Source: Sinohyriopsis cumingii
Lineage: Eukaryota; Mollusca; Bivalvia; Unionida; Unionidae
Length of the DNA stretch: 64,000 nucleotides
Direction: 5' to 3'
NCBI GenBank assembly: GCA_028554795.2
Contig: CM068839.1
Span: 40,081,006 to 40,145,005, forward strand
In this document: positions 8,872 to 34,654 of the stretch, in pieces
Layout: the number at the start of each line of letters is the position of its first letter
Position numbering within the stretch: the first letter of the stretch is position 1
Notes under the pieces: generated by a model
Database searches by the model: none
Told to the model about the DNA's origin: nothing
What the model saw: only the letters and a program-made list of their open reading frames with translations
Program-made: the position numbers and the translations under genes

Positions 8872-9195
8872 CCAGGTGTCCTAATGTGACGTCATAGCTG
8901 GCCAATGGCAGCTGACGTTACATACTGTTTGGGTTGACACCTGGGGCTGCCAATGCAACTGAATACATGAGTGTGGGTTTGCACTACTCCTACTCATGAA
9001 TTAGGCCTTACATTTAGTATCGTTTGGGCACGCCACTACTGTCTACGAACAAAAGGCCCAATCAAATAGTACTCTATGAGTACATAAATGCCTGAAGGGT
9101 GTGGCACCATTCCTCCCCTCAGGAGTAATCAAAAAGGTGCCCTTGGCACCACAAACCAGAGGTACATGTCTATTGCAGACGAACACCGCTATAAT
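8872..9195 (+). other. Hairpin array, copy A, ending at TATAAT
   Basis: In order: an outer stem CCAGGTGTC/GACACCTGG (8872-8944) enclosing a long hairpin (8886-8921), CATGAGT/ACTCATG, GTACTC/GAGTAC (9069-9083), CCTGAAGGG/CCCCTCAGG (9091-9123), GGTGCC/GGCACC (9136-9150), and GGT...ACC (9161-9187) enclosing GTC/GAC. TATAAT follows at 9190 and an ATG 61 bp later. Copy B (12879-13204) keeps the same order and spacing with changed but still paired stems. This could be a structured RNA leader or a DNA cruciform promoter. Confidence 0.6.
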
Positions 9196-9250
9196 TCAAC
9201 TCAACAACAACAAGTCTAACCATCCATTGTCGACTCATCCTCCTACGAAG

Positions 9251-9629
9251 ATGTGCTCCAGACTAGCTAAGCTAAACGAAGCCTACGTGAATTTGCATAG
9301 GGTCAGACACAGTCTGATACCGAAGCCAGAAGAGATAGAGAATGTGAGAATGTTAAAAGTCACTGAAGACCAGATAGAAGAGCTCTTCAGAGAAGAAATG
9401 AACAGGGAGAAAGAAGAATGGACGGAGAAGTACAGACTTCAGAAACAACAGAGAGAGCAGCAACAGCAACAACAGCAGCATCAGCAGCATCAGTAACCTG
9501 AACCTGACAGAGGCTTTGTCGATTGTCGTATCGACACCAAAGAGTTCTTCTTCTCTTTCCGAAGAAGCAGACCTATCGTCAGAAAGTCTATCGTCAGAGG
9601 ACGTCGCATTCTTAGAATATAAAAGATAG
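9251..9629 (+). pseudogene. Small coiled-coil gene with histone-like 3' end (frameshift in CAG repeat)
   Basis: ATG 9251 starts CSRLAKLNEAYVNLHRVRHS, similar to the start of the gene at 10113 (SRRLAKLLELHVHLQYARLI), so the two are paralogues. A charged helix follows, then a CAG-repeat Gln run that stops at 9494-9496. In the next frame the text continues through the repeat as a Ser/Glu-rich acidic tail (TPKSSSSLSEEADLSSES) and stops at 9627-9629, 20 bp before the histone-type stem-loop. The repeat has probably slipped. Function unknown. The shape suggests a small nuclear or chromatin-associated protein, but this is only inference. Confidence 0.5.
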
Positions 9630-9648
9630 CCATAGCAAACAAAAAAAC

Positions 9649-9664
9649 AGCCCTTTTCAGGGCT
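9649..9664 (+). terminator. Histone-mRNA-like 3' stem-loop with downstream purine element
   Basis: AGCCCT-TTTC-AGGGCT is a perfect 6-bp stem with TTTC loop, followed by ACCCA, as in animal histone mRNAs. GAAAAGAAA at 9678 resembles the histone downstream element that pairs with U7 snRNA. Confidence 0.75.
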
Positions 9665-9689
9665 ACCCATACCTCTAGAAAAGAAATAA

Positions 9690-10020
9690 CAATCGATTTG
9701 CCAATATGTGTTTGTAGAGTAGTGTGAATATAAACACTCACTCTTTTCTGGTGTGATTGTATGTGTTTGTGATTGTAAGCGATCAAGTACGTTTGTGTGT
9801 ATAGTAGATAATGATCATGTTTTTTGCTGTTTGACGTGTGGAGAGTAGATTTTGGTTTTGATTTGATTGCTTTGCGTATGTGGATAGTATAATATTAATT
9901 TAAATGGCTTGTAAAAATTTTTTAGAATAGTGATGGGTAGTATAAAGAAGTGAGTGAGTGTTTCTTTTAGGTCCGCGCGTTGTTTGGTCATGATCTAGGT
10001 AATATAGGTTTTGGGTTTTA
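9690..10020. other. TG-rich intergenic spacer
   Basis: T/G-rich DNA shared with the spacer after 10490 (for example GTAGAGTAGTGTGAATATAAACACT at 9713 and 10526 in near-identical form). The whole gene-plus-spacer unit therefore appears to have been tandemly duplicated. No gene seen. Confidence 0.5.
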
Positions 10021-10060
10021 GGGGGATGTTTTCCTTCACGTCCGCGTTTTAACTATAAAT
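10021..10060 (+). promoter_or_regulatory. Shared box-plus-TATA promoter, copy 2
   Basis: GGGGGATGTTTTCCTTC, CGTCCGCG and TATAAAT 33 bp after the box start, 59 bp before the ATG at 10113. Confidence 0.65.
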
Positions 10061-10112
10061 TGAAAATCGCTCGGCAGTCTAGTTACCCTTGTTGATTGAT
10101 CAACACTAGAGA

Positions 10113-10334
10113 ATGAGCAGAAGGCTAGCGAAACTGTTAGAACTTCATGTGCACCTGCAATATGCCAGGCTCATACTGAATGAGCTGGCCGCAGACTCTA
10201 TAGTGGAAGAAGGAAGGATGAAAGAGGAGGAGAGAAGAAAAAAAAGAAGAGGAGAAAAAGGAGAGAAGAATGGCTGTACCACAGACACAAGAAGGAAATT
10301 TCAGAATCCCAGAGACAGAAGATTGGGATTCTGA
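10113..10334 (+). pseudogene. Paralogous small coiled-coil gene
   Basis: Starts SRRLAKLLELHVHLQYARLI, like the gene at 9251, then a K/E/R-rich helix. The frame ends at 10334. An overlapping frame, reachable by one indel in the A-tract near 10230-10245, reads E/K-rich, then acidic (IPETEDWDSEATHSA), and runs past the stem-loop. The second frame better matches the acidic tail of the paralogue. I therefore suspect a frameshift, as in its neighbour. Unknown function. Confidence 0.45.
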
Positions 10335-10460
10335 AGCCACTCATTCCGCCTCTGCGCTCCCAACAAAAAAAGTAAAGGAGACTGGAGTAGAAGATGTGTG
10401 TGTGGTGCCAGGCCTGGAAGGTGCCATCATTAACCAGGTGCCCTGGAGTTCAAAACAAAC

Positions 10461-10476
10461 AACCCTTTTCAGGGCT
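10461..10476 (+). terminator. Histone-mRNA-like 3' stem-loop
   Basis: AACCCT-TTTC-AGGGCT: 6-bp stem with one A/C mismatch, TTTC loop, followed by ACCCA. GAAAAGAAA about 15 bp further repeats the arrangement at 9649-9685. Confidence 0.65.
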
Positions 10477-10745
10477 ACCCAAACCTTTAGAAAAGAAATA
10501 GTAATCCATTTGACATTGTGTGTATGTAGAGTAGTGTGAATATAAACACTGACTAATTTTTCCTAGTGTGAGTGTATGAGTTTATGTATATGATTGTGTG
10601 TTTATAAGCGCTAGCATAGGTTAGTGTGGATAGTAGATTATTGGAATTTGATTTTAATGCTTTGCGTTTGTGGATGGTAGATTTTGGGTTAGTTTATTGC
10701 TGGTTCGCGTATGTGGATAGTAGATAATATGAAATGAGAAAAGTA

Positions 10746-12590: not shown

Positions 12591-12893
12591 TTGTCTCTAA
12601 AACAACATCTGGCTGAACTTTTAAATCAAGCTTCCACAGCTATTTCTACTAACATACTCAGCCAAATCCAGGCAATATTGGCAGACGACCCTGAAGAATT
12701 TGAAACTTCCACGCTGGCAGCGGCCCTGTAAGTATCATCATCCAGCGGCGATGAAGCTGATGAACCTGCACCACCTAAACAGAGTGGAAAAAAGGAAGGC
12801 TCTGTCTACCGGAATATGGGACTGGGAAAGGCATTTGATGATATCAAAAAAGCGGGCCACTTCGTCAATACCACAAGACCAGGTGTCCTAATG
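12580..12893 (+). pseudogene. Unknown coding remnant ending in the hairpin array
   Basis: One frame, interrupted by a single TAA near 12729-12731, reads a helical segment (LKQHLAELLNQASTAISTNI), an acidic stretch (ILADDPEEFETS), SSSSGDEADEPAPPKQ and finally GLGKAFDDIKKAGHF, and stops as ...PGVLM inside the outer arm of hairpin array B. The composition is protein-like, but I recognise no family. It may be a small gene cut by the LINE or a remnant of another element. Confidence 0.35.
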
Positions 12894-13204
12894 TGACGTC
12901 ATCGCTGCCGACGAATCGTAGCGGGAGTCACATACTGCTTGGTTGGACACCTGGGGCATTTCGATCCTACTAAGAAACACGAGTGTGTGGTGTGACTATT
13001 CCCACTCATGTTTATTAGCCTTCCAGTCAGGTTGTTAAGGACTAGTTAGTCCTACACATGAGTGGCTAAATTAAAAAGTACTCTTTGAGTACATAAAAGC
13101 CTGGGGGATGAGGCTCCTTTTCCTTCCCCCAGGAGTAATTAAAAATCACGCAGTGCGTGAATAAACAAGTGGTACATGTTCAAAAGAACGAAAACCACTA
13201 TAAT
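12879..13204 (+). other. Hairpin array, copy B, ending at TATAAT
   Basis: Same layout as copy A: CCAGGTGTCC/GGACACCTGG (12879-12954, perfect 10 bp) enclosing GTGAC/GTCAC and CGCT/AGCG. Then GTACTC/GAGTAC (13078-13092), CCTGGGGG/CCCCCAGG (13100-13133), CACGCA/TGCGTG (13147-13159), and GTGGT/ACCAC (13169-13198) enclosing GTTC/GAAC. TATAAT follows at 13199. Several stems differ in sequence from copy A while remaining paired. Confidence 0.6.
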
Positions 13205-13233
13205 CCAACTAACTAACTAAGTTTCGGGTCTTA

Positions 13234-13272
13234 GGGGGATGTTTTCCTTCACGCCCTCGCTTTTCGTATAAG
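13234..13272 (+). promoter_or_regulatory. Shared box-plus-TATA promoter, copy 4
   Basis: GGGGGATGTTTTCCTTC, a diverged CGCCCTCG, and TATAAG 33 bp after the box start, 55 bp before the ATG at 13322. Confidence 0.6.
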
Positions 13273-13321: not shown

Positions 13322-13435
13322 ATGGAGGTGACAAAATTATTTAACGATTTGAGACATAGCTATTTTTGGATCATGGATGGGACTTATGTAGTAGAAAGAT
13401 TGAATAAGGAAGGAAGATTTGAAGGTAGCCTGAAC
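13322..13435 (+). pseudogene. 5' part of a small coiled-coil gene split by the second Polinton
   Basis: ATG 13322 starts EVTKLFNDLRHSYFWIMDG and the frame runs to the TGAAC target site at the left end of the second element. On the other side (32896 onwards) the coding frame resumes without gap once one target copy is discounted. The gene was therefore intact in frame at the time of insertion. Promoter copy 4 lies directly upstream and a histone-type stem-loop ends the distal part. Function unknown. Confidence 0.7.
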
Positions 13436-13978
13436 AGCAGCAGAGAGGGTGAACAGACCACTTAAGGGAGTGGTCACCCTTGTGTTTTACCAAAAAAAAT
13501 AGTGACCACTCATAGAGGTCAATTACCACGTCTACGATTATTGTTTGTCCCAAACAGAATTGTAGACGAGCCCTCTCTGCTGCTATCAGTCTTGGAAATC
13601 ATCATCTGAATCTGTTTCATCTTCATCTGAATCTTCGGAATTTGTTCTATGTTTCAAGTAATATTCAAGTTCTGATGGTGGTTTTTCTATTTTTGGATTT
13701 ATGTTCTTTCTGTGTTTATAATATATCATCAAACTTCTGTATCGATCTCCACCGCAATTTTTACAAATCTGATATAATCCTCTAACGCCGTTGTTACATC
13801 CAACACAACTTCGTGGACCAGCATGAGGATTTTTCTTTATAAGATAATTATGTTTCTTGCAATATTCTCCACGGCATTTTTTATTACAGTTGTTAGTGGT
13901 TCCTTGACGTAACCACGCACAGTTGTTCATTATATTAATGATATCTGTTTAATACAATTTAATTTTATCATCACCCCT
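13436..13978. repeat. Left terminal inverted repeat
   Basis: 543 bp matching the reverse complement of 32353-32895 with roughly ten or more differences, mostly in the acidic tail of the gene it carries. The outermost 150 bp are themselves bounded by inverted copies of GCAGCAGAGAGGG and contain the stem GAGTGGTCAC/GTGACCACTC, so the tip can fold on itself. Confidence 0.93.
13586..13930 (-). CDS. Cys-rich zinc-binding protein carried in the left inverted repeat
   Basis: 114 residues. Spaced Cys/His residues: C at 4, CNKKCRGEYCKKH, then CVGCNNGV and CKNCGG, enough for two zinc sites. The C-terminal tail is Asp/Glu/Ser-rich. It is nearly identical to the gene at 32401-32745 in the other repeat and related to 19646-19945. 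Being inside the repeat, it is present twice per genome and transcribed from both ends inwards relative to the termini (outwards in coding direction). Role unknown. A regulator of transcription or of terminal DNA is plausible, but only inferred. Confidence 0.75.
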   Translation of the reverse strand: MNNCAWLRQGTTNNCNKKCRGEYCKKHNYLIKKNPHAGPRSCVGCNNGVRGLYQICKNCGGDRYRSLMIYYKHRKNINPKIEKPPSELEYYLKHRTNSEDSDEDETDSDDDFQD

Positions 13979-13979
13979 G

Positions 13980-14645
13980 TTACCCAAATATTTTATCAAT
14001 ACCCACACGATATCTTGTTCTTGGATCATGTAAATTTATTGTTATAAATCCATGCGGAGTAGCTTGCGCTCGTGAGAAGAAATTTTTGAATTTAATTATA
14101 TCCATGTCACCACCACACCAAGTTTGATGAATATTTCGCAACGTGTGTGTGTCTACGCCATTAAACACAACTAAAATGTTGCAGTTGTCTCTGATCACCT
14201 TCGGAATTTGTGTATATCGTTGAGTAACATAGATCACGTCTGTATTTTTGTGTCTACCTCGGGAAAATATTCTGGCTGGATTTGATTGTTTATCTAGCAT
14301 CACATCGTCGTATACAACTAAATTATTAATAAATCCGTCTATGGAATCTACGGATGGTGCTTCATCAATATCGGTTATAAACTCTATAACATCATTATCC
14401 TCATCCAGCAATCGCGCGTTTTCATTGAAATCTTTAAGTACATCATAACATCGCTGATCATCAACGGATGGTGCTACTAAATATAATTTATCCCATTTCA
14501 ACCATCTCATTATCAGATTAAGTAATAATTGCGTCTTACCCGATCCAGATGGTCCTATGATAATCATTCTGATGGAGTTCGGTAGCGCAGGATGATGCTT
14601 AACTGGCTCTCGTTGCCGAGTTGCTGAGAAATCAATTATATCCAT
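13980..14645 (-). CDS. Packaging ATPase (FtsK-HerA/A32 type)
   Basis: 221 residues, intact. Walker A is GPSGSGKTQLLLNL near residue 32 and Walker B is NLVVYDDV near 108, followed by NTDVIYVTQRYTQIP (sensor-like) and a C-terminal HGFITINLHDP. The length and motif spacing match Polinton packaging ATPases, which translocate DNA into the capsid. The stop lies directly at the inner edge of the left inverted repeat. It is divergent from the next gene, so the 12-bp gap to 14658 must hold both promoters or sit in a shared region. Confidence 0.88.
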   Translation of the reverse strand: MDIIDFSATRQREPVKHHPALPNSIRMIIIGPSGSGKTQLLLNLIMRWLKWDKLYLVAPSVDDQRCYDVLKDFNENARLLDEDNDVIEFITDIDEAPSVDSIDGFINNLVVYDDVMLDKQSNPARIFSRGRHKNTDVIYVTQRYTQIPKVIRDNCNILVVFNGVDTHTLRNIHQTWCGGDMDIIKFKNFFSRAQATPHGFITINLHDPRTRYRVGIDKIFG

Positions 14646-14657
14646 ATATATTATAAC

Positions 14658-15159
14658 ATGAATTTATATTGTTTACGCTGTAGAGTTAAAACTCCAACCA
14701 CTGATTTAGCCACAGTTATAACAAAAAACAAAAAAAATAGCGTACGGTGGAAAATGTTCTATATGCGGTAGAAAGAAATTTTCGTTTTTACCTAATAAGC
14801 GCGGTGGTGATATTGCTAATTTGATGTCAAAGTTTCCAGGTGCTCCATGGGCTAAATACAGTGGAGAAAAACATCTACCAGGATATAATTATTGCGGTCC
14901 TGGTACTCGACTCGATATCAGGCTCGATAATCAGGATCAACCAAAACCAGGCGAGGAACCAATAAACGCTATTGATCGAGCTTGTCATGCTCATGATGTA
15001 GCTTATAAAAGTCAAAATCTACAAGATAGGCATATTGCAGATGTAAAATTAATTCATTCATTAAATTCTATAAAAAATAAAAATATTAGAGAATCATTAG
15101 CTAATTGGTTAGTAAGATCCTCGATGAAAGGTAAATTAGCGATTGGGGCTGGTAATTAA
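14658..15159 (+). pseudogene. Zinc-ribbon plus phospholipase A2 protein, frameshifted
   Basis: ATG 14658 starts NLYCLRCRVKTPTTD, half of a CxxC zinc ribbon of the DUF5679 type. After A-runs at 14723-14737 the other half (CSICGRKKFSF) appears in the next frame, so one indel separates them. The second frame continues to 15157-15159 with a parvovirus/insect-type PLA2 domain: LPGYNYCGPGT (calcium loop) and DRACHAHDVAY (His-Asp active site). In parvoviruses such a domain lets virions leave endosomes. Here it could act in entry. Ends 2 bp before the integrase ATG, suggesting co-transcription. Confidence 0.78.
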
Positions 15160-15161
15160 TA

Positions 15162-16148
15162 ATGGAATCAATTTATTATTCACCGAGAGGATACTGGAGA
15201 GGCAAAGCAGCAATTGGTAAACTCGCTGATGCAGTGGCGGTTAAACATTCTACTGCTAAAACGTGGTTATCTAAACAAGCAATATGGCAAATTTATCTAC
15301 CACGTCCTAAACAAATTCAGTACGCGTATTTCGATGTCAGTGTTCCTAATGAAGTTCATCAAGCTGATATTCTGTTTTTACCGCATGATACTGTGCGTGG
15401 AAAAACGTACAAGTACGCGCTAACCGTAGTTGATGTTGCAAGTAGATATAAAGAAGCAGAGCCGCTATCAGCGAAAACATCATCTGAAGTAGCCGATGCG
15501 TTTGAACGAATTTATCAACGAGGTGGTGGACCACGAGGTGGTCTACGATGGCCACAGCTACTACAGGTTGATCCTGGTAAGGAATTTCTTGGTCCAGTAT
15601 CATCGTTGATGAAACAACATAATACCAAAATACGACGAGGTCATACTGCAATTCATCGTGACCAAGCAATTGTTGAGCGATTTAATCGAACACTTGCTGA
15701 GCGGTTATTTGGATATCAATACGCGAGGGAATTTATTCAAGATAAAAGATCTCGCAAATGGGTGGCAAGATTACCAGGCGTGATAGCTGCATTAAATGAT
15801 GAGATCACACGAACAACCAACATGAAACCCATTAGCGCGGTCACATAAAAATATATACCAACACAACGAAAAGATGTTGGAAAACAAAAAATATTAGGTG
15901 ATGTTACAGTCAGATATTTATATGAGCCTGGTGAACTTAAAGGTGGTAAAGCGAGAGCGACCGATCCTATTTGGAGTGTTACCACACACAAAATATCTAC
16001 CGTGACAAGATCCACCGGGAGAAACGTAGGCGTTTCCAGACCTGCAATCTACAGATTAGATTCGGCCGCTCCTCAACGTGGATTTACACGTGAACAACTA
16101 CAAATAATTCCCGCGGATACACAACTACCACCAAAATCACTACGGTGA
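15162..16148 (+). pseudogene. Retroviral-type integrase (second type), in-frame stop
   Basis: Starts ESIYYSPRGYWRGKAAIGKL, the N-terminus of a second well-known Polinton/adintovirus integrase type. Triad: D in VHQADILFLPHD, D in LQVDPGKEF and E in DQAIVERFNRTLAERLF. An in-frame TAA at 15846-15848 interrupts it. The same frame then stays open to a TGA at 16146-16148 with a basic C-terminal domain (RGFTREQLQIIP). No chromodomain is present, unlike the integrase at 2390. Catalytic residues lie before the stop, so only the C-terminal domain is lost. Confidence 0.87.
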
Positions 16149-16158
16149 TTTCGATCAC

Positions 16159-19100
16159 TTAACTAGCGCCTCTACGTCGATTACACTCAAGACAGGTAAA
16201 CATGGTATTTTCTCGTGTATGACCGCGACTATTATCTTTTCTATCTACGGTAAATTGTCTTGAATTATTACTCGAATACCGCCATAACATTATACAATTA
16301 CAACTGGTGCAATGATTATTCTGCTGCTGTTTTAACTCAATAATAAATTCAACATCAAGATCAAAGTCACGTTTATTTTTTTTGTCAGATTGTTTGTATC
16401 CGATTAATTTTTTTCTTATTATATCATCATCGATGATGTTAAATTTATCAACGATTTCAGGAATTATGATTCTACGTAATTGAGATATATTTCTGACCCT
16501 CGATACCGCCAAATAAACTAAATTTGACCACTCGATGCGATCGTCTACAATCCAAACTCGTGTATCAGAAATAGTTAATCCCTGAGACGAGTGGATTGTC
16601 ATAGCGTATCCCAACACCCATGGAGATTTGTCAGCGTGTATTGCATCTTCGACTACACTGATATCAACGGCGACAATATCATTTAATACGAGATTTTGAT
16701 TCTTAGTCTGTCCTGGAATATCAACATTAATATTCTGTTTTCGTGTATCTGATGGTCTATAACACAACGGTACGGGTAATTCTGAATATTTTTCTTTATG
16801 TAGTTGAAATAACTGTTGTTGTAAAGCGTCTCTGATTATTTTTCTACTTGCTACGATCAAATCGGTGGGTCTCCATAATTTCAAAAAATCACTCATTGAT
16901 GTCTCTGAGATCACTCCACGTATTATTTCACACTGAATTTTGTTTGATTGTAATCTGATTAATTTTTTAAACTCCTTCAAATTTGCATCAAGAGCTCTAT
17001 GATCATCATCTATTTCTTCGTAATAATCAACGAAATTTTTTAACCAATCATGTGGAGATGGTCCAACAAAAGGCGGCGGTTGACCATGATCGCCACACAT
17101 TATTATGGCGGTATTTTTCGTCAACAACCAATCAAGAAACATTTTTAATGTATCCAATGACACCGTGCATATCTCATCCCAAATAATTATTTTAGGTATA
17201 TATTTTTCTCCCATCCGTTCAGGAGTCCATGTATCTCCGCGCCACCGAAAGAAACTATGATACGTGCACGATTGTACTTGCCGCTGTTTCATCTCACGTG
17301 CAAGTCTATGTGTGGGTGTCAGCACGATTATATCTGAATTTCTAAAAACATTAATCGTTCGAGTTGTTTTGCCGCATCCACCAGGTCCATTGAGATATAC
17401 TGTCTTATATCTGGTTATTGGATCACTCAACGATGGTGCTTTCGACATTTCTGATATTTTATTACCCTCACGATAAAAATCTCTCACTGGAACATCTGCT
17501 GATTCTGTGTAATTGTGTAATAGTTCCTTTTTTATTCTCCACGAACCCCATCGTTCATCATTACTTGTAAATTTCATAACAAGTTCTAAATATTTACTTG
17601 AAATATAAAACGAATCTGTTGCGACTCTGACTGCGGTCTCAGGAAATCTATTAATCATCGATAATAAATTTATAGAAACATAAGCCAACATGGAAGATCT
17701 TAGATGAGTATATTGCGGGGATACGTCATTTATGTAACTAACGATCGTACCTAATTTTGTTCCGTCGGATAAATAAACTCTCTCGATTTACAAATATATT
17801 TTTCGCCGTTGTATCAGCAATTATAAAATCGTACTCGGCATCATCTAAAATTAATCGTGCGTGATGTCTTTTATAATCATATGCACCACCTTGACTAAAT
17901 TTACCTATAATTTTTCTACCGAGATCTTTTGCGGTTTTGAGTTTATTAGGAATATCATCCTTAAACTCGCTGATAACTTCAGAATCTGACATGGGCAACC
18001 AAACTTTGGTCTGTGCATGATATGATATAATTGCCTCACTGACCACCAACGATGTCAGTATCGCACAATCTAGCATATATCGTAACAAAACTATAGGTGC
18101 CCAACGTTTTTCACAAAAATGTCTGCCAAACCAAACATAACAAATCTTGTGAAGATTTTCGTTAAACTCGAATGATTCAATACAGGCGAATCCAGTCAGA
18201 TCAAAATCAGGTAATGGTCCATTAATTGCCACTCGCGTCATCTCGTTTGTTGGGTGACCAAATCTTTCAAAGTACGTAGAACAATCTCCGTATCCCAGAA
18301 AACTTCCTGGATAACATGCAACCATATCAACCGAAATAACATCATTGTAATTATATTTGGTATTCCATAATCCGCCATGTCCATATTCGACGCAACTTGC
18401 GCGTACGTCCTCGAGTAAATCAAATCGTGTTGGTTTCCATGAATTTCGTTCTCTGGCGAAATGAGCCGCAACAGATGGAACGGTAAAACAATTAGTTAGT
18501 AATTTGTCAGTATTTTCCGCGTGCTTGTACTTGAAAAACGTCGCGAGATTTTTCATCTCGTCATGGAGGGATTCTGTGCGATATATTTCACCGTTCGGTT
18601 TGACAAACTGATCAAATTCACCCTCCTCATTACTTTTAAATAACCATACCGATACAGGATCGGTTTTACTTATTTCGTTGATAAAATCAAACATACTATC
18701 TGCCCCAGAATTATCTGCCCCAGAATTATCTGGGGAGTAAAATCTAACAGTTCGATCACGTGGAAATATTGTTACTGCGTTAGTCCATGCGTGCGCGTTA
18801 TGATCGATAATATTTATTGGAGCTCCCTTCGATTTATATTTCGACTGGTACAGTACTTCTCCCGTTATTGTCGCCACAGTTATTGGAAATTTTAATATTT
18901 TTCCTAACTCAGCAACATCTTTTATTGTAGCACCGGTATCCTTAACCGAATCAGCGCACGAGTTTATTTTTTCACGCCTTAAATCGGTTAATCCATTTCC
19001 ACGCATCACGTTTGTAAAGTGTTCTATTACTCGTTCGGCTACACAATTTAACCTTGAAAATTTCATCGGCGCTAGTTTATCAACGTTGGGTTTTTTATTT

Positions 19101-19597: not shown

Positions 19598-19645
19598 ATA
19601 ATTAAAACAAATATTTAAATAAAGAAAATTATATATATATATACA

Positions 19646-23501: not shown

Positions 23502-23583
23502 CCCATGGCTGACAATTTGTCGGTGGTGTACGCATAATTGCGATTTTTATAATAGTGGGGGGAACCGCAAACCCCCCCCCCCC

Positions 23584-23682: not shown

Positions 23683-23691
23683 TATATGTTT

Positions 23692-24249: not shown

Positions 24250-24291
24250 TAGGGATATTTTTTTTTATTTTGAAGATTTATATATTATATA

Positions 24292-24735: not shown

Positions 24736-25491
24736 CCACGTGTATTGGTAGTCAAAATCAAGAAAATTCTAACCTTGTCAAATTGTTCCTAATAAATTTT
24801 ATTTATTATAAATTAATTTTATTTATTAATAATATTATTTTTACTGAGGATTTTTTTTTTTACTAAAATCAAGAAAAATGCACGAATTACTTGATTCTGA
24901 CGGGGTAGTTGGTAGTCAAAATCAAAGAAAAATGCACGAATTACTTGATTTCTGACGGGGTAGTCAAAATCAGGAAAATTGAGCAATTTCGTTGTATTTT
25001 AGTAAAAAAAAATAAAAATCTCAGTAAAAATAATATTATTAATAAATAAAATTAATTTATAATAAATAAAATTTATTAGGAACAATTTGACAAGGTTAGA
25101 ATTTCTTATTTCTGACGGGGTAGTTGGTAGTCAAAATCAAGTAATTCGTACATTTTTATGTTTCTGAGGGGGTAGTTGGTAGTCAAAATCAAGTAATTCG
25201 TACAATTTCAGTAAAAATCAGGAAAATTAATAAATCTTATTTTTTTTGTGATAGAAATTTTAATTTTTACTTTCATCGACCAGCTTTTTTAGTTGCCTAG
25301 GCCGATTAATTTGTACCAAACACAAATTTGTGCCAGTAATAATAAAATATTTTTTTATTTATTTTTTTAAGTTGATCGAATTTGAGTCTGATCTCTGTTA
25401 CAAATGTTCTTCTAACTGTTAAGAAATCCTCGCGTGTAAAAACCCTCCATTACATGAAGATCTACGATAAAAGTCCTCAGGACAGAAATCC
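24736..25491. repeat. Convergent intergenic region with 100-bp inverted repeat and direct repeats
   Basis: Arms 24766-24869 and 24996-25102 are almost perfectly inverted (AT-rich, loop about 126 bp). Around and inside them GGTAGTCAAAATCAA(G) and TTTCTGACGGGGTAGTTGG recur four to five times, and AAAATGCACGAATTACTTGATT twice. The region separates the + replication-side genes from the - virion genes. No gene. Could be a two-way transcription end, a replication origin or a degraded small transposon. 25230-25491 is plain AT-rich DNA. Confidence 0.8.
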
Positions 25492-26907: not shown

Positions 26908-27354
26908 TATTGATACTTGTATCTTTAATACCTTCGTCGTATATTTTGGTTATCATTGAAAATTCGAAATCAGATATAATTCCATCACTGAGACTCGCTG
27001 ATAACAACGAGGATAATTTCGAGTATGCTACCGTCGCTGTATGTAATTTTATTTTGTAATCGGATAATTTTTCGTTCGTACAAGTACATATTTTTTTGTG
27101 ATGATATTAAGCACACCTGCAATAGTTGTTGCTGCTGAAATACAAATAGTTACAGCTACTGGTGCCATCGTTGTCAACGCTGATAATATTACACCGGTTC
27201 CAGCAACAACAGCGGATACTGAATAAACAATCACATCAACGATAACCAATCGTCGTCGATATTTTTTTACTTTTACTGTATATTGATCAACTTGATCTTT
27301 TAGCGCCGCCTGCCATTCACGCGCTTGATTGTATCTGTATTGTGCACCGTCCAT
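26831..27354 (-). pseudogene. SLATT-like two-helix membrane protein, frameshifted
   Basis: ATG at 27354: AQYRYNQAREWQAALKDQVD, basic YRRRLVIVDVIVYSV (helix 1), MAPVAVTICISAATTIAGVL (helix 2). That frame stops at 27049-27051. In another frame the family text goes on (LSDYKIKLHTATVAYSKLSS, then LSDGIISDFEFSMITKIYDE, an EF-hand-like 'SDG.ISD.EF' motif) to a stop at 26831-26833. The shift is in the A-run near 27060-27066. The gene end overlaps the penton start by 77 bp. Similar proteins occur in cnidarian and other Polinton-rich genomes. Virion-membrane or sensing role unknown. Confidence 0.6.
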
Positions 27355-27362
27355 ATATATTT

Positions 27363-28385
27363 TTATGCAGTAACCAATTGAGGTGTTTCAGCTACAAATT
27401 CCAAACACCACCAGAAGGATGTTGCGGTTAATTTCTTATCATCTGCTTCCAGAATAAATATTTCTTCGGTTCCGCTATTTAATACAACAGATACAACCCC
27501 GGAAAACCTGTCGGTGGAATGACGCCATGGAAACGTTGTAAATATTTCAAATTTTGCAGCACTAAACACAGACAGCCTGTACACGCCAGTGACTGTTGCG
27601 GTATATTTGATAGTATTATTTTGCTGCGACCATGTTGCAAATCCCGATGATACCGTGCATACGATGTTTGTGATATGCCCGGGAGTTATTTCAGCTGGAA
27701 TTTTAATCAGACTGGTTTTATTGATAATCTCAGGAATTCCCGCTACGATGTCTAGCTGTGTTCGTTTGATCGTGCCTAGGTCAGTTTTGATATCAGAAAG
27801 TTTCATGTCAATGGCGCGTGGAGTACCGAAGAATTTATCCATGGTATCATCGATTTTTTGAAAATTTCTTCGAAATCTTCCAAAAGCTCCTGCGTGAACG
27901 TCATACTCAGCCCGTAACGTGAATAATTTACCGTCTACGGTGCCATAGTTGACGTCGACGTATTTTTTTGTTGCTGCGTCTTCGTCAGATGTTGGATCTC
28001 TTAAAACTACTATTTTGTTCCCGTTCATGCTAAGTTCACCCATCATTGTGTCACCGGTGTTTCTCACGCGATTAGCAACACTTTTTGCAATTTCATCTCT
28101 GATGGTTTTAAGTGACATACTTGAATCTCTGATTCTACCACCATCAGTAAACACGGGAATATTATCTGTAACTGCACCGAGTACTCGTCGAACTATATCA
28201 TTCCATTTGATATTGCTGGTTTTTAGTTTACCATATCGATCTTGAAAAATAACAACTTCATCTGGGTCAACTCCAGCCAGGTTCATGATATCAGCGAGGT
28301 CATCCTTAGTCACATACTTCGACAGATCAACGTCGCCGAGCTTTTTCTTAACGCGTGAAGAAGATCTTCCGTAAATATCAACCAT
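27363..28385 (-). CDS. Fiber-like protein with phage tail-type trimer motif
   Basis: 340 residues, intact. Residues 1-50 are a possible attachment segment (SRVKKKLGDVDLSKYVTKDD). The middle contains NTGDTMMGELSMNGNKIVVL followed by DPTSDEDAATKKYVD, the motif common in phage tail fibers and other trimeric fibers, then a helical stretch. The C-terminal 110 residues (ITPGHITNIVCTVSSGFATW, YTATVTGVYRLSVFSAAKF) are beta-rich and look like a C1q/TNF-type or knob domain. Likely a receptor-binding vertex fiber; the neighbouring penton would anchor it. The role is inferred from architecture. Confidence 0.65.
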   Translation of the reverse strand: MVDIYGRSSSRVKKKLGDVDLSKYVTKDDLADIMNLAGVDPDEVVIFQDRYGKLKTSNIKWNDIVRRVLGAVTDNIPVFTDGGRIRDSSMSLKTIRDEIAKSVANRVRNTGDTMMGELSMNGNKIVVLRDPTSDEDAATKKYVDVNYGTVDGKLFTLRAEYDVHAGAFGRFRRNFQKIDDTMDKFFGTPRAIDMKLSDIKTDLGTIKRTQLDIVAGIPEIINKTSLIKIPAEITPGHITNIVCTVSSGFATWSQQNNTIKYTATVTGVYRLSVFSAAKFEIFTTFPWRHSTDRFSGVVSVVLNSGTEEIFILEADDKKLTATSFWWCLEFVAETPQLVTA

Positions 28386-28402
28386 TATATAAGATCCGTT
28401 GT

Positions 28403-28882
28403 TTAAAACGCCTTACGCGCAACATATCGGTTGCTTGTATAATCGTGCACGACTTTATGTGGCGGCCTGGATGATTTTGATATAGCGTCGAGTACATTAA
28501 TTACTTCACGGCCGCATATTGGCGGATCTGTCATTGTTTGTGTGGGTAGCGTTGAATACCAAACTTTGGAACCTCTGGTTGTTGCGTGGAGTGGTGCGAC
28601 ATACTTGATAAATTCAACAGGTGGAGCTAACCCGTATGAATCAAAATAAACAATTCCACGCGGATCAACCGCGTATGATACCCAATGAGTACCGGGTCCG
28701 GAACGTTCATCGAGATTAATAATACCTGTTTCTAGTTTGTTTGGTTGTTTCTGTAATTGATCTCGCATAAAAACACCTCTAAAGGCGGATATTTTTAATT
28801 TTTTAGCGGCATTAAGTAAATCAAAATTTGATGCTGGAACGTCTAACGAAGTGACCCTGGAAGCCTTAGGCCTCTCCCCCAA
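28403..28882 (-). CDS. Adenain-type maturation cysteine protease
   Basis: About 159 residues. LKISAFRGVFMRDQLQ near the start is a conserved block of this group. His is in SGPGTHWVSYAV, Asp in IVYFDSYGLAPP and the likely nucleophile Cys in PPICGREVINVLD, so the usual C5-type order is kept. The sequence around Cys (CGREV) is less typical than CGQYC at 7167-7766. The ATG at 28882 gives a slightly short N-terminus, with the previous gene ending 16 bp upstream. Processes virion precursors. Confidence 0.8.
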   Translation of the reverse strand: MGERPKASRVTSLDVPASNFDLLNAAKKLKISAFRGVFMRDQLQKQPNKLETGIINLDERSGPGTHWVSYAVDPRGIVYFDSYGLAPPVEFIKYVAPLHATTRGSKVWYSTLPTQTMTDPPICGREVINVLDAISKSSRPPHKVVHDYTSNRYVARKAF

Positions 28883-28898
28883 CGAGATCCTGGCAATC

Positions 28899-29294
28899 TT
28901 AAGCCGCGCCCCTTTTTTTGTATCCTTGCCCTGTTGCTTTCTTTAGTGCCATTCCAGCGGCTGTTCCAACAGCACCTAACGCGGCCGCTTTTGCTACGGC
29001 TGGAGCAGCTGCAGCTATTAATGCCGGAATAGCCGCGAGTAGTGGAAATATACCACCCGTTTTAACCATGTCTTTGATGGCGCTCGGGGAGAGATGGAAT
29101 TGAACTCCAGTTTTTGATTCTAGGGCTTTATTGAAATGTTTAATCTGATTATTTGTCAGCGATAATTTGTTTGGACCACCACTAATATGATCTCGTTTTA
29201 GTGATATTTTAGTTCCGCATTTGTTGGCGGTTTTTGATTGAAGCTTTTTTACCTGACCGGGGGTCAGAGTAACATTAACATGACTATACGACAT
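28899..29294 (-). CDS. Adintovirus core/membrane-active protein with two LTP-type repeats
   Basis: 131 residues, intact. Two related blocks: VNVTLTPGQVKKLQSKT and NKLSLTNNQIKHFNKALE, with ISLKRDH and FHLSPSAIKDM segments, then GGIFPLLAAIPALIAAAAPA and an Ala/Gly-rich hydrophobic helix and a short basic tail (GYKKRGAA). The repeated 'LT..Q...' plus hydrophobic Gly/Ala tail is familiar from adintovirus/Polinton virion proteins. Probably packaged and membrane-active. Function is inferred. Confidence 0.68.
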   Translation of the reverse strand: MSYSHVNVTLTPGQVKKLQSKTANKCGTKISLKRDHISGGPNKLSLTNNQIKHFNKALESKTGVQFHLSPSAIKDMVKTGGIFPLLAAIPALIAAAAPAVAKAAALGAVGTAAGMALKKATGQGYKKRGAA

Positions 29295-29328
29295 TTTTAT
29301 ATAAATAATATTTTTCTAAATAACACGA

Positions 29329-30788
29329 TTAAATATTTTCCACCGGTGCATCAACGACCCTCATTCGACCACTGCCACCTTCAAGTAACATGGCTTTGTC
29401 GCTAAGTACGACAGCGATCGCTCTGTAGAAGCCGGGAACAATTGGTGGACCGGGTATATCAGGAGGAGGGTTAGTAACATGAGCTCGAAAGTGTATATCA
29501 ACAACAGATTGTTTGGATAAATCAAGATGTTCTAGTGAAAAATAATAAATCGGATATAGACCTGTAAAATCTAGTTGTGATATTTGCAAACCGGTATCTA
29601 TATTTTGATCACGTCCCATGAATGACATTAAACGATGATATGCGCGCGCTACATGATTTTGATCAAAATTTAGTTGTATATCCTCGGCTGGTTCTTGATG
29701 TCCATTTATCCGTAAGGAAACTTCATTAACTCCAAGGTTATCAAATATCATATGTGAAAGTTGTTGATCATTTATCCGGTTAATATTTTGCAATGCAATA
29801 AAAATATGTCGTGGTGCAGAAACACCCTGTTGTGATGCTATATGCCATGTAAATAAACCATTAATATTGCTTTGAGCAGCATCTGTGGTTACTGTTAACC
29901 ATGATAGCAATGATTTACCGCCTTGATCCATAAAAGATAGTAATTTTTGTTCCTCAGTAATAGATGGAGTCATTACTGGCATCCACAATGAAAGTTTTGA
30001 TATATTTACTTTACCAGCAGCAACAACACCAGCCAGATTGCATCATTATCATCACCTTTTCTTACGAGCACAATTGTGTGTTTAGCTCCAAAGATGACTT
30101 TTCTAACATTTCTGCAAAATCCAAAGATGTGAGATAATGGAATTGCACATGAAAAATTTCTATCATTTCCTAACAGCGCTGATCGGCGTGTTGCAAATCC
30201 TAGGTTGTAAGTCGCATTAACGGTTCCTATAATATCAAAAGCAGCAGCTGGTCTGGCTGCGTGTTCAAAGTCAACTGGCTGTGGATCAGCTGCAGTATCT
30301 TGTGGTGTCCGTACTTTGGTATACTGAACATGATCAGCGTTGTCAGTAATATCCTTGGCAAACATCATTGTTGGACCAGCCGATCTTGTAAAGTCGTCAG
30401 AATATCTCGCCAGACCAATTATTGTTGTAGCAACGTCGACATCATTCTGAATTGATTCAATATTTTTTCCATCAATCATGTATGTGGCGCCACTAAATAA
30501 TGCCATAATCCCGTTGTTGACAAAACCAACACGCAAATTAGCAGCATATGGCGTATTAGCTACAACATCCGTTACAAGTCTACCTTCTACTTCAATAAAC
30601 GTCTCAGCGGGCAAGAAATATCTACTTGTATCATGAACCTGTAATTCGATTCTCCCTCGCTGATTTGGTAGTCTTGCGTCATAAGAATAAAATTGATAAT
30701 CACGTACCGACTCGTACTTAAGGACAGGTGCCTCCATATCAAATGCTGGGTCTGATTCGCGCCTGAACATTTTTATTATAGTTACCAT
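29329..30788 (-). pseudogene. Major capsid protein (double jelly roll), frameshifted
   Basis: The N-terminal part begins at ATG 30788 or, better, 30770 (MFRRESDPAFDME): SVRDYQFYSYDARLPNQRG, then IELQVHDTSRYFLPAETFIE. This frame stops at 30006-30008. The C-terminal half is in another frame from about 30040 to 29329: LSLWMPVMTPSITEEQK, GLYPIYYFSLEHL, VLSDKAMLLEGGSGRMRVVD. A single indel near 30025-30045 explains it. About 485 codons in total, as expected. The sequence is far from the capsid at 5295-6628, supporting a separate lineage. Confidence 0.82.
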
Positions 30789-30802
30789 TTTTCAAATGAT
30801 GA

Positions 30803-31237
30803 TCATCGTCGACGAAGACCACTTCCTGCTATTAAATTTGCTGTTATATTTTTTTCTGCTTCTTCAGATATCGCCGCTAGTTTTTGATTTGCAGCCTGAT
30901 TTATTATTTTACTTACGTCTGCGGGCATCACCTCAGTACTTGCCAGTTTCACCGGTGATTGTTGTTTTCGTCGCAATAATCGTGCTAGTCTTTCCTTGAT
31001 CGCCGAGAACGCCTTACCAGCAACATTGACAATTGCACCAGGAGCTTTATCACGAACAATATCAATAGCCTTCATCGATAATTGTTTTGCAACAGGTGCT
31101 ACTTTTGGAGCTATCCTTGTAAATAATCCCTGAATAACATCACCAAGTCCATTTCCGTAAATAACACTATAGATTGGTAATCGTGAGTTTACCGCTCTAA
31201 CCTGTGTGGGTTTACGATGATTATTATGCACAATCAT
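30803..31237 (-). CDS. pVI-like membrane-active virion protein
   Basis: 144 residues, intact. YGNGLGDVIQGLFTRIAPKV near residue 27 is the 'G.GLGD' turn plus amphipathic helix also seen at 4838-5281 in the first element. A long helical region (VAGKAFSAIKERLARLLRRK) and a C-terminal GSGLRRR follow. Located directly upstream of the major capsid gene in transcription order, as in the other element, which supports the pairing with capsid. Endosome-breaking or capsid-cementing role inferred from adenovirus protein VI. Confidence 0.62.
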   Translation of the reverse strand: MIVHNNHRKPTQVRAVNSRLPIYSVIYGNGLGDVIQGLFTRIAPKVAPVAKQLSMKAIDIVRDKAPGAIVNVAGKAFSAIKERLARLLRRKQQSPVKLASTEVMPADVSKIINQAANQKLAAISEEAEKNITANLIAGSGLRRR

Positions 31238-31271
31238 CTTATTTTATTTACCATTTATCTAATCGCGGTGA

Positions 31272-32300
31272 CTAATCATCAACGAGCTCATCAATAAGTT
31301 CTCGGTAAACGCCAATATCCATGATACCACCTTGAAATAGTCGCCGACAAATATCAGCTGCTTCATTGGTTATTTCTGGTGAATTATTTCCGGCACGTTT
31401 TCCTCCTATGAGAACTTCTAACCGTGACACGTCATTGAGGATATTATCAGGACAAATAAAATTATTTCCCAGACCACTGCCAGTAGCTCCTTCTTCTTCT
31501 GATTTCTTAAATAGTCTTAAGGGTGATCTTTTTTCCGTTGTTTTCTTAAATAGTCTTGAGGGTGATACTTCTTCTTCTTCCTCACTTATTGTTCTGAGAG
31601 ATTGTGATACTTCTGATCCTTTTTGTGCAAGATACATGTCTATGTTTCTGCGATAATCATTATATACCTCATCACTAGAGTAAACTCTATCTTTATTGTA
31701 ATATATACGATATATCCATTTATACCAGATTTCAGGATCACTAATACGAGTGGAACTATATTCAGGTCTTAAAAGTTCTTCTTTTTTATTAAAACTTTCT
31801 ACTGCAAGTTTTGATAACGTATTAATATCCTTAATTTTTTTTATGAATTTGATACCCACCTTGGTAAATTTATTGCTCAGCATAATCGTTCTTCCTTCAT
31901 CATCTTTCATATCACCTATCTCAGCACGAAGTTGTCCAATTTCTTCAAGTATTTCCTCACCAACAGGTGGAGGCTGAGCCGCGGCTATTTCCCTGGCTAT
32001 GCCAGGTGGAAGATCTCGTAAAATCTTCTTTGCCTGTTTAGTTCTTCTTGCTATTTTTTCAGCCTGCGCCGCAGTTTGTTTTGATACCGGAAGAAGATCT
32101 TCTTTGATGACTGTCGTAACTTTCTCAGTAGCTGCAGTGACGGGTTTAAACAGTTTTTTAGTGTCTTCTTCATACTCAACTTTTGCTTCTTGCTGCGCTT
32201 GTAGATTTTTTCTAAATGAGTCTTTGACAGGAAGAAATTTTTTAATTGCTTCTAATCGTTCTCGAGCTGTTCTTGCAGTATGAGATTCTGGATGTATCAT
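31272..32300 (-). CDS. Coiled-coil structural protein of unknown role
   Basis: 342 residues, intact. The first half is charged helix (ARERLEAIKKFLPVKDSFRK, KIARRTKQAKKILRDLPPGI). An internal duplication PSRLFKKTTEK / PLRLFKKSEEE follows (residues about 252-272), then a C-terminal block (DVSRLEVLIGGKRAGNNSPE, ICRRLFQGGIMDIGVYRELI). The last block ('L.....AGN....N....I...L...G.I....Y..L') recurs at the C-terminus of structural proteins in this virus group. First gene of the - strand virion block and about 50 bp from the right inverted repeat. Confidence 0.6.
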   Translation of the reverse strand: MIHPESHTARTARERLEAIKKFLPVKDSFRKNLQAQQEAKVEYEEDTKKLFKPVTAATEKVTTVIKEDLLPVSKQTAAQAEKIARRTKQAKKILRDLPPGIAREIAAAQPPPVGEEILEEIGQLRAEIGDMKDDEGRTIMLSNKFTKVGIKFIKKIKDINTLSKLAVESFNKKEELLRPEYSSTRISDPEIWYKWIYRIYYNKDRVYSSDEVYNDYRRNIDMYLAQKGSEVSQSLRTISEEEEEVSPSRLFKKTTEKRSPLRLFKKSEEEGATGSGLGNNFICPDNILNDVSRLEVLIGGKRAGNNSPEITNEAADICRRLFQGGIMDIGVYRELIDELVDD

Positions 32301-32352
32301 TTTATTATAACATAATAATTTAATTAATATCAGCAGAAGAGGAGCAGCAGAG

Positions 32353-32895
32353 AGGGGTGATGATAAAATTAAATTGAATTAAACAGATATCATTAATATA
32401 ATGAACAACTGTGCGTGGCTGCGTCAAGGAACCACTAACAATTGTAATAAAAAATGCCGTGGAGAATATTGCAAGAAACATAATTATCTTATAAAGAAAA
32501 ACCTTCATGCTGGTCCACGAAGTTGTGTTGGATGTAACAACGGCGTTAGAGGATTATATCGGATTTGCAAAAATTGCGGTGGAGATCGATACAGAAGTTT
32601 GATGATATATTATAAACACAGAAAGAACATAAATCCAAAAATAGAAAAACCACCATCAGAACTTGAATATTACTTGAAACATAGAACAAATTCCGAAGAT
32701 TCAGATGAAGATTCCCATGATTCAGATGATGATTCCCAAGACTGATAGCAGCAGAGAGGGCTCGTCTACAATTCTGTTTGGGACAAACAATAATCGTAGA
32801 CGTGGTAATTGACCTCTATGAGTGGTCACTATTTTTTTTGGTAAAACACAAGGGTGACCACTCCCTTAAGTGGTCTGTTCACCCTCTCTGCTGCT
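32353..32895. repeat. Right terminal inverted repeat
   Basis: 543 bp, inverted copy of 13436-13978. Its inner edge (GCAGCAGAGAGGGGTG, 32344) again shows the terminal 13-mer, so that word occurs at the tip, 150 bp inside the tip and at the inner border of this repeat. Confidence 0.93.
32401..32745 (+). CDS. Cys-rich zinc-binding protein carried in the right inverted repeat
   Basis: 114 residues, the second copy of the gene at 13586-13930. All Cys/His positions are the same (CNKKCRGEYCKKH, CVGCNNGV, CKNCGG). Differences are few: a Pro/Leu and a Gln/Arg change and several in the acidic C-terminal tail. Both copies remain open while many single-copy genes in this element are broken, either by chance or because the inverted repeats have been corrected against each other. 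Confidence 0.75.
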   Translation: MNNCAWLRQGTTNNCNKKCRGEYCKKHNYLIKKNLHAGPRSCVGCNNGVRGLYRICKNCGGDRYRSLMIYYKHRKNINPKIEKPPSELEYYLKHRTNSEDSDEDSHDSDDDSQD

Positions 32896-32900
32896 TGAAC

Positions 32901-33368
32901 AATGTGAAGAGTCTTGGAGTAGCAAAAGATCTAATAGGGGGAATGACTGAGGAAGAAGTAGAAAGAATCAGAGGATTCATTGACCCACCTTACGTGAGAG
33001 TAGGTACTTTAAAGGAAGCCTTGGATCATGTCATAGAAGTCAGGAGCTTCCTAGAAAATAGCTTTTATTGGACTGACTGGTGGTACTTAAAGTGGGGTTT
33101 TAACCAGTTGATAAAAGCAGAAGAACTAATTAGAGAGGTAATGAAAGTAGAAGTGATGAAGATAAAAGAAAAATGGAGCAAAGAGAGAAAGGAAGAAGAG
33201 AATAAGAAGAAGAAATTAGAGTTTGAAAGATTGAATAACAACTGGATGAAGATCCAACAGAAATTCAGAGCGATGGGTCATCCTGAATGGATAACAGAAA
33301 CTGAAAAGCGGAAGAAGAAAGAAATAATGGAAAAAATGAGAACTTGGTGGAAGAAGTGGAGGACTTAG
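32901..33368 (+). pseudogene. 3' part of the small gene split by the second Polinton
   Basis: The frame continues that of 13322-13435: NNVKSLGVAKDLIGGMTEEE, VRVGTLKEALDHVIEVRSFL, WTDWWYLKWGFNQLIKAEEL, then a K/E-rich helix and a final MRTWWKKWRT, stop at 33366-33368. A Trp-rich basic end (IRSWWRKRRN) is also readable near 35020-35045 in the neighbour at 34711, so they are relatives. A histone-type stem-loop follows 21 bp after the stop. Unknown family. Helical charged middle suggests a coiled coil. Confidence 0.65.
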
Positions 33369-33389
33369 AAGAAGAAGAAGAAACCCAAA

Positions 33390-33405
33390 GGCCCTTTTCA
33401 GGGCC
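33390..33405 (+). terminator. Histone-mRNA-like 3' stem-loop (best match)
   Basis: CAAA-GGCCCT-TTTC-AGGGCC-ACTCC: matches the animal histone consensus GGYYCT-TTTC-AGRRCC with flanking A's and ACYCC-type downstream bases. CGAAAAGA 13 bp later fits the histone downstream element. Confidence 0.85.
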
Positions 33406-34440
33406 ACTCCAATATCTCGAAAAGACCTTGACTTTCAATTGCCTACCCCTTTTTTTATTTTTAAAAAAATAGAGACCCCCTCCCTTTTTCAATTTTCGCC
33501 TGTTCCATTTCCATAGACCCATCAGGTCGGGACCGTATTAAAATAGGGTCCCGACCCTGTTCCATATTCCCCTTGTCGCTCAACAGTCCCAAAATATATT
33601 TCCCATGTTAAATTCCCATTGTCGCCAGGGTACAAATTTTTTTCTCCTATGTTAAATTTTCCATTGTCGCCAGGGTACAACCCTCTATTTTAACATTGAA
33701 GTCGCCTTGTCGCTATACTATCCCACCTTACTACTATTAAATATCCGGGTCATCAGGAATTAACAAGTGACAAAAGCACTTAGTTTGCTTAAGCGACTAT
33801 AATTATATTCAGATTCAGACTTCGCGGCGGCAAGTCGCAGCCAGACGGCCAAGAACTCAACAATGGCTGTTAGGGGTTCGTATACTTGACCAGTACTACG
33901 CCAATACTTTTCACAAACACCCAATGGATACCCTTATAGAAGCTGCAAATCATCTTACTGCATTACACCGAAAAGAGGCATTCCCTGAATAGCGATGTAA
34001 AGAACCACGCAGTGCAGCGGAAATCGTGGACTAAGAAGACGACCGTTGCTCATTTGGACTGCCGTCCTAAAGCACTTGCAAGGGCTATTACTAAACAAAT
34101 GCCTCTTATTTTAAGAGTTTCTACTTGGGCTTAGAAACCCGATTTGATTGAACTCACACAACGAATTTGATCTTCTGATGACCTTTCAAAAATTATACCA
34201 TTCTCAACAACAAATTGTGACAGAATTTTATAAAAGTCACTTTGACTATGTGTAAATTAGTTGTGTTTTTTTAAATTTTAATGTATGCTTAGTAGACTAA
34301 ATTTGAAGCTTATGACAGTAGGTTAATTTAAGACTTAGATTAAATGTGACTCTAATTACGATTGTAGCTAACACAAAACTAGTAATAGGGACTCCCGAAA
34401 AGTTTCAACTGGGATAATTTAACTCAGAGTAAGGCTTTGG
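33406..34440. other. Spacer with a strong hairpin, tandem repeats and a decayed promoter unit
   Basis: A perfect 10-bp hairpin GGTCGGGACC/GGTCCCGACC lies at 33525-33556. A unit containing CCCATTGTCGCCAGGGTACAA is repeated at 33615-33680. GCGACTATAAT at 33794-33803 and an ATG 64 bp later match the end of the hairpin arrays but with weak stems, and the frame after the ATG closes quickly. A short open stretch near 33897-33990 (HPMDTLIEAANHLTALHRKE) may be a gene relic. The rest to 34440 shows nothing clear. Confidence 0.4.
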
Positions 34441-34550
34441 CGTATAAATACGTTCCTGTGGGCTGTGGTTGCCTCCTAACGGGGCCCTTCCCTCCTTTGC
34501 ACGCGCCGACATATTACTAATTGAGAAGTGTGACATTCGCGCACAAATGC

Positions 34551-34654
34551 GGGGCTGTAGTGGATTTATTCCTACAGTCCCGACCAACTGAAAATCTCGA
34601 CATTCGAGAATTAAACTAGTCGCAAAAGCACTAGTTTGCGTGTGCGACTATAAT
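34551..34654 (+). other. Hairpin array, copy D, ending at TATAAT
   Basis: GGGGCTGTAG/CTACAGTCCC (34551-34581), TCTCGA/TCGAGA (34595-34609), AGTCGCA/TGCGACT (34618-34649) and TATAAT at 34649, 62 bp before ATG 34711. Spacers between the three hairpins (13 and 8 nt) are nearly those of copies A (12, 10) and B (13, 9), while the stem sequences are unrelated. Confidence 0.6.

Follow-up and report, generated by a model that had tools for sequence, protein, structure and literature searches.

The window examined here, 64,000 nucleotides of the unionid bivalve Sinohyriopsis cumingii (GenBank assembly GCA_028554795.2, contig CM068839.1, positions 40,081,006 to 40,145,005 of the forward strand), contains at one locus four copies, A, B, C and D, of an array of hairpins. 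These arrays are a real, strongly covarying conserved structured element, undescribed as far as our searches reach. The letters of the stems change in matched pairs while shape and spacing stay, and therefore the folded shape itself appears to matter. Tentatively, at a probability of about 0.4, the arrays are regarded as copies of one structured element working as folded plus-strand RNA. Coordinates are those of the window, and all arrays and genes described lie on the plus strand.

Geometry and Covariation of the Arrays

In its 3' half the array forms a fixed comb, with the hairpins H4, H5, H6 and H7 followed by the heptamer CTATAAT. The linkers of the comb measure 7 nt between H4 and H5, 12 nt between H5 and H6, and 7, 7 and 8 nt between H6 and H7 in arrays A, B and D, respectively; these values correct the spacers of 12/10, 13/9 and 13/8 nt given in the original prediction. 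H4 and H6 have a common geometry of 6 bp and a 3-nt loop, and in arrays A, B and D this loop ends in T in six of six cases. H4-H7, extending over 9067-9195 in A, 13076-13204 in B and 34526-34654 in D, is common to the three arrays and aligns with few gaps. The 5' half, H1-H3, is common to A and B, which share about 340 nt with 71.6% identity over 352 columns (8862-9201 and 12869-13210, BLASTN).

Covariation was assessed in H4-H7 of A, B and D, in an alignment of 132 columns that was not fitted to the structure and that holds 34 pairs, or 102 cells. The structure string was taken from these same sequences, and RNAalifold agrees with it: the program returned the same 34 pairs when no structure was supplied, and folds of single copies, with pairs limited to 45 nt, fell mostly on the same columns. 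Standard pairs make up 96.1% of the cells, against a mean of 73.5% after shuffling of partners (0/500 reached the observed value), and sliding the partners by 1-3 columns brought pairing down to 38.2-53.9%. Both sides have changed in 20 of the 34 pairs, a count matched by none of 500 shuffles (mean 7.2); it comes from three sequences, takes no account of their relatedness and is not evidence of R-scape grade. Between A and B there are nine double changes, no kept single changes and two pairs broken in one copy; the corresponding numbers are 16, 3 and 4 for A and D, and 14, 3 and 2 for B and D. H6 keeps its six pairs and 3-nt loop in all three copies while all six pairs vary, five of them differing between A and B. 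In H1-H3, 4 of 40 predicted pairs are changed on both sides between A and B.

Conservation is somewhat higher for unpaired than for paired letters, at 37/60 and 26/68 for A and D, 35/59 and 35/68 for B and D, and 45/59 and 47/68 for A and B. The unpaired letters are A-rich (90 A and 56 T over the three copies), although the plus strand is A-rich anyway in parts of this region. A-rich unpaired letters are a usual trait of structured RNA. The claim that the stems differ and yet pair is thus borne out by the double changes, the pairing rate and the agreement with RNAalifold. Selection on folding, which had been proposed from a few stems, is well supported by the covariation against controls, by RNAalifold, by the pairwise counts and by the covariance-model search described below.

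Positions of the Hairpins

All hairpins of the original prediction were found in place, and their coordinates were measured. In array A, H1 (8862-8948) begins with a conserved 9-nt leader, TACCACAAG, and its arms (8871-8880 and 8936-8945) enclose an inner covarying hairpin. It is followed by H2 (8966-8998), the outer stem of H3 (9004-9058), with one both-sides change relative to B, H4 (9069-9083), H5 (9091-9123), H6 (9136-9150), H7 with an internal loop (9158-9190) and CTATAAT (9189-9195), a possible TATA box of gene 1. Array B consists of H1 with the conserved leader (12869-12958), H2 (12978-13010), H3 (13017-13067), H4 (13078-13092), H5 (13100-13133), H6 (13146-13160), H7 (13168-13199) and CTATAAT (13198-13204). 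The outer arms of H1 are nearly invariant between A and B, and the inner hairpin covaries in part. A reading frame with one stop, 12600-12896, runs into array B and ends inside H1; it could be the remnant of another small gene.

In array D, H4 (34528-34542, with two G-T pairs), which was absent from the earlier description, precedes H5 (34550-34582), H6 (34595-34609), H7 (34618-34649) and CTATAAT (34648-34654). The proposed common order of hairpins therefore holds for H4-H7 in A, B and D, and it does not extend to H1, which was not recognised at D: a model of H1 (R2) found A and B in the window and then only matches at E 0.57 and worse, H2-H3 not being modelled.

Further Copies and Database Searches

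A descriptor of the form H4-7-H5-12-H6, composed after the copies had been seen, matches the arrays A, B and D and nothing else in the window, three times on the plus strand and never on the minus strand. The same descriptor gave 9 fits in 150 random first-order-Markov windows, both strands included, or 0.06 per window. A covariance model (R1), built from A, B and D and run on the whole window with filters off, recovered these three and then copy C at 30.2 bits (E 4.9e-4); the next best match, with 13.6 bits and E 0.84, is at chance level. The decayed copy that had been suspected near 33750-33803 was thereby confirmed as copy C (33698-33803). It retains degenerate H4, H6 and H7, has broken pairs, lacks H5, ends in CTATAAT and has no established gene behind it. 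Its free fold takes another shape, at -21.1 kcal/mol against -8.5 kcal/mol with local pairs only, and shuffled versions fold equally well in 4 of 200 cases when RNA energies are used and in 8 of 200 when DNA energies are used. Both C and D can close into an alternative long-range fold, which in D lies within 1.5 kcal/mol of the comb, a possible switch.

No Rfam family reached its gathering score at the arrays, the only family to do so in the window being Histone3, outside them. A permissive Rfam search of the array regions, to E 10, gave only weak matches there, all far short of the gathering score, namely tfoR at 9088-9173 (E 3.3) and CRISPR-DR52 at 34580-34616 (E 5.6). No tRNA-like gene was found by ARAGORN. 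An H/ACA snoRNA was rejected as there is no ACA after the last hairpin, judged by eye with the hinge not tested, and hammerhead and other ribozymes were rejected for want of an Rfam match. In a viral collection that may omit near records, exact words from two array stretches confirmed no relative; the same outcome was obtained there with protein-guided scans (packaging ATPase, P0001, alignment A4 and P0023), and the histone stem-loop word had no match. The promoter word matched once, in a 110-kb viral contig, which was judged to be chance, and R1 found nothing in 13,315 bases of that contig. Neither alignment A4 nor the promoter word had a match in the genome collection. In the titles and abstract openings of open-licence papers, among the matches listed, no element of this kind was found.

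Genes Behind the Arrays

Without the inserted elements, the locus consists of small plus-strand genes in a row; each of the arrays A, B and D precedes such a gene with a histone-type stem-loop, or its remnant. Gene 1 (9251-9496, ATG 9251) encodes 81 aa, and six of its eight relatives continue beyond the position of its stop. Gene 2 (10113-10334, ATG 10113) is a paralogue of gene 1 with a homologous leader. Gene 3 is in two parts, a 5' part (13322-13435, ATG 13322) and a 3' part (32896-33368), of which 141 aa from 32943 match relatives. Since the protein P0002 matches both parts, with residues 2-39 on the left and 54-191 on the right, gene 3 was split by the insertion of a Polinton-like element. 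The structure predicted for P0002 is that of a helical protein (mean pLDDT 77.5), and its Pfam matches are all sub-threshold. A profile search based on gene 3 together with its relatives collected 22 proteins: 20 come from contigs of 591-2018 nt (18 with jgi/ena and 2 with ncbi as source), and two are named from the freshwater mussel Sinanodonta woodiana, in keeping with a unionid source of the window. Gene 4 (34710-35105, ATG 34710) is broken by stops, and the 3' ends of genes 3 and 4 share 73% identity.

Matches to the histone 3' stem-loop family (Rfam RF00032, gathering score 34) lie behind gene 1 (9644-9688, 31.5 bits), gene 2 (10456-10501, 21.3 bits), gene 3 (33385-33430, 35.1 bits) and, decayed, at the end of gene 4 (35060-35105, 19.1 bits); the score exceeds the gathering threshold for gene 3 only, one gene of the four. 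P0018, a relative of gene 3, contains the residues KPKGPFQGHS, which when back-translated would fit read-through of the same stem-loop. Histone-type 3' stem-loops behind small non-histone genes are an unusual use of that signal.

TATAAT and Neighbouring Promoters

A promoter motif, GGATGTTTTCC, referred to here as type I, occurs four times (at 7985, 10024, 10748 and 13237) and precedes a TATA-like box by 30 nt in three measured cases. One of these is the promoter of gene 2, with TATAAA (10024-10059) and no array, and another is that of gene 3, with TATAAG (13237-13272), located downstream of array B. The TATAAT of array A lies 22 nt before AAGTCTA at gene 1, and in two promoters that lack an array, at 8015 (with no proven gene) and at 10054, TTTAAA and TATAAA lie 20 and 21 nt before CAGTCTA. 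Because its distance resembles that of the TATA-like boxes of these two neighbours, the TATAAT of A may be a TATA box; the start-region motif AGTCTA was chosen after the fact and occurs eight times on the plus strand of the window. From this motif onward, the leader of gene 1 can be aligned with that of gene 2.

The distance from the TATA-like sequence to the ATG is 61 nt for gene 1, 59 nt for gene 2, 55 nt for gene 3, 65 nt for copy C and 61 nt for gene 4, in which the TATAAT is that of array D. This spacing was rejected as proof of a TATA box, being too common: of the 243 TATAA[TAG] words in the window, 48 are followed by an ATG at a distance of 55-65 nt. The TATAAT described at the end of each copy is indeed present in A, B, C and D, and the heptamer CTATAAT by itself is a common word, with 12 occurrences in the window against 12.9 expected. 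Judged from motif spacing, TATAAT is likely used as a TATA box in A, though not as its whole role, and perhaps is so used in D. Array B keeps its CTATAAT even though gene 3 possesses a promoter motif of its own and, 68 nt beyond the heptamer, a TATAAG.

The original prediction had offered an either/or: a TATA box would imply a DNA cruciform, and otherwise the array would be a leader RNA. The TATA box is plausible in A; the dichotomy is too sharp, as B keeps CTATAAT before a separate promoter. A position upstream of one start need not imply a cruciform in DNA, because the array could still be part of a longer transcript or of an RNA of its own.

RNA or DNA

On strand, and on RNA against DNA, the folding results are mixed. 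With RNA energies, the z-scores of H4-H7 are better on the plus strand in all three copies (plus/minus: A -2.81/-1.68, B -6.48/-5.84, D -6.24/-3.90), and with DNA energies they favour plus in two of three. The full-length array D clearly prefers plus with RNA energies (-5.67 against -3.57). For both A and B the RNA minimum is the consensus comb; with DNA parameters, H5 of A is lost. G-T cells outnumber A-C cells by 5:1 among the 102, which is suggestive at most, and H4 of D depends on two G-T pairs. Folds with DNA parameters likewise beat shuffles in A, B and D.

For the proposed RNA, the following course may be envisaged. Transcription would begin upstream of H1 and yield the array either within a long 5' leader on the mRNA of the neighbouring small gene or as an RNA of its own that ends near CTATAAT; the shape of the array, together with its unpaired A-rich linkers, would be recognised by a protein or by the ribosome. 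At gene 1, and perhaps at gene 4, TATAAT might additionally serve as the TATA box of a shorter mRNA without the array. Array-bearing and array-less transcripts would then coexist, both ending at the histone-type stem-loop.

Several observations weigh against a function as folded plus-strand RNA. If the TATAAT of array A is a TATA box, the array would be excluded from the mRNA of gene 1; a second promoter lies between array B and gene 3; and A and B have no sequence similarity upstream of 8862 and 12869 that could represent a common promoter for a longer RNA. The full-length RNA z-scores are slightly better on the minus strand in A (-3.36 plus, -3.63 minus) and B (-6.81 plus, -7.10 minus), and the plain minimum energy of H4-H7 in A is lower there as well (-40.9 against -37.5 kcal/mol on plus). 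The RNA minimum of D closes otherwise, at -49.9 kcal/mol against -48.4 kcal/mol for the comb, and D stays comb-like with DNA parameters. The bias towards G-T is small, and the nine double changes between A and B with no kept single change resemble the replacement of whole stems more than stepwise RNA drift through G-U.

Alternative Explanations

The arrays could instead act as DNA, a reading that we consider rather doubtful. As a promoter or origin element, the array would lie wholly upstream of the start, and its hairpins, formed in single-stranded or extruded DNA, would be read by transcription or replication proteins beside the TATA box. Consistent with this, the TATAAT of A occupies the TATA position of gene 1, the distances to AGTCTA being 20, 22 and 21 nt in three promoters (with the motif chosen post hoc), and it stands at the place where, in three other promoters, the type I motif precedes a TATA-like box by 30 nt; most changes lead from one Watson-Crick pair to another, the DNA-parameter folds of A, B and D beat shuffles, and full-length A and B have no clear strand preference. 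The two G-T pairs in H4 of D, poor in DNA, and the preference of H4-H7 for the plus strand with RNA energies argue in the other direction, and with the linkers then double-stranded, the conservation of their A-rich letters would have no explanation. To our knowledge, no eukaryotic promoter conserves a hairpin comb without sequence. A more specific proposal, which is unlikely, is that of a promoter-proximal element read by shape: a hairpin comb abutting the TATA box, replacing or standing beside the ordinary upstream motif, would couple the transcription of small non-histone genes to DNA replication, the phase of histone-type 3' end processing. Equally improbable is a mobile structured element, SINE-like or a hairpin transposon, inserted upstream of genes, whose fold would be kept for a transposition enzyme and whose tail would have supplied a TATA box by chance. 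The sharp start and stop of the A/B similarity, the short simple repeats after TATAAT in A and B, the other mobile elements at the locus and the lack of an established gene behind copy C would suit such an origin; it fits poorly with A, B and D each preceding a small gene or remnant, with the absence of a flanking duplication (by eye) and of a tRNA-like part by ARAGORN (pol III boxes not being searched with a tool), and with 20 of 34 pairs kept by double change, unlike decaying insertions.

The matched arms might also come from mutation and not from selection, if template switching or gene conversion rewrites an arm or swaps stems between copies. The simultaneous difference of five of the six H6 pairs between A and B, and the lack of kept single changes between them, speak for such a process, which is nevertheless quite improbable: it leaves unexplained the fixed loop lengths, the linkers of 7, 12 and 7-8 nt with their conserved letters, and the final CTATAAT in four copies. 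Steroid-receptor sites are inverted repeats of 6 bp with a 3-bp spacer. H4 and H6 show exactly that geometry in three copies, as would be expected if the stems were palindromic transcription-factor sites and the array an ordinary enhancer; five different hexamer half-sites among six hairpins do not provide the constant half-site of a steroid-receptor IR3, H5 and H7 do not fit, and this explanation is very improbable.

Comparison With Known Systems

The histone 3' UTR stem-loop, RF00032, is matched behind genes 1, 2 and 3 and in decayed form at gene 4, but these genes are not recognisable histones, and the stem-loop stands at the other end of the gene and is distinct from the array. Structured 5' leaders and internal ribosome entry sites (IRES) resemble the arrays in their ordered hairpins and conserved unpaired linkers, and arrays A and D stop some 55 nt short of the start codon; unlike such leaders, the arrays have no credible Rfam match (to E 10), and a suspected TATA box lies between array and start codon. 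Palindromic repeats serve as origins and enhancers in large DNA viruses of invertebrates. The arrays likewise are repeated palindromes beside promoters in a cluster of small genes, whereas here geometry and spacing are fixed and the sequence is free, and no relative was confirmed in the viral collection. A further comparison is with integron attC and other sites that are read as folded single strands. As in attC, structure is kept while sequence varies, and the element adjoins gene units; the arrays differ in having several hairpins and not one, and in their eukaryotic setting.

Mobile Elements and Repeats at the Locus

A Polinton/adintovirus-like element (13436-32895) is inserted in gene 3, with TGAAC at both flanks. 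Its inverted repeats of 543 nt (13436-13978 and 32353-32895) are 97.2% identical. Pfam matches above cut-off are a Pox_A32-type ATPase, an rve integrase, a PLA2-like domain and an AAA_19 helicase, and the protease and capsid matches are sub-threshold. LINE-like remains were noted by eye at about 10.8-12.4 kb; like the other mobile elements described here, they mark the window as animal and not bacterial DNA. An integrase with a chromodomain (2588-3499) is part of a further mobile element, and a frame resembling an adenain-like protease (7167-7766) was recognised by eye, with no Pfam match; together they perhaps represent a second Polinton-like element, or an LTR element in the case of the integrase. 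A 40-nt tandem repeat occupies 53535-53816, with six overlapping 83-nt matches at a spacing of 39-40 nt.

Significance

That three copies keep one geometry although their stems largely differ is direct evidence of selection on shape in a eukaryotic intergenic element that has no Rfam entry. The array, moreover, fronts non-histone genes whose messages have histone-like ends, which is itself unusual. If the element works as DNA, it would be a promoter read by its fold, an old idea of which we know no clean comparative example. If it works as RNA, the arrays would represent a new structured family in bivalves.

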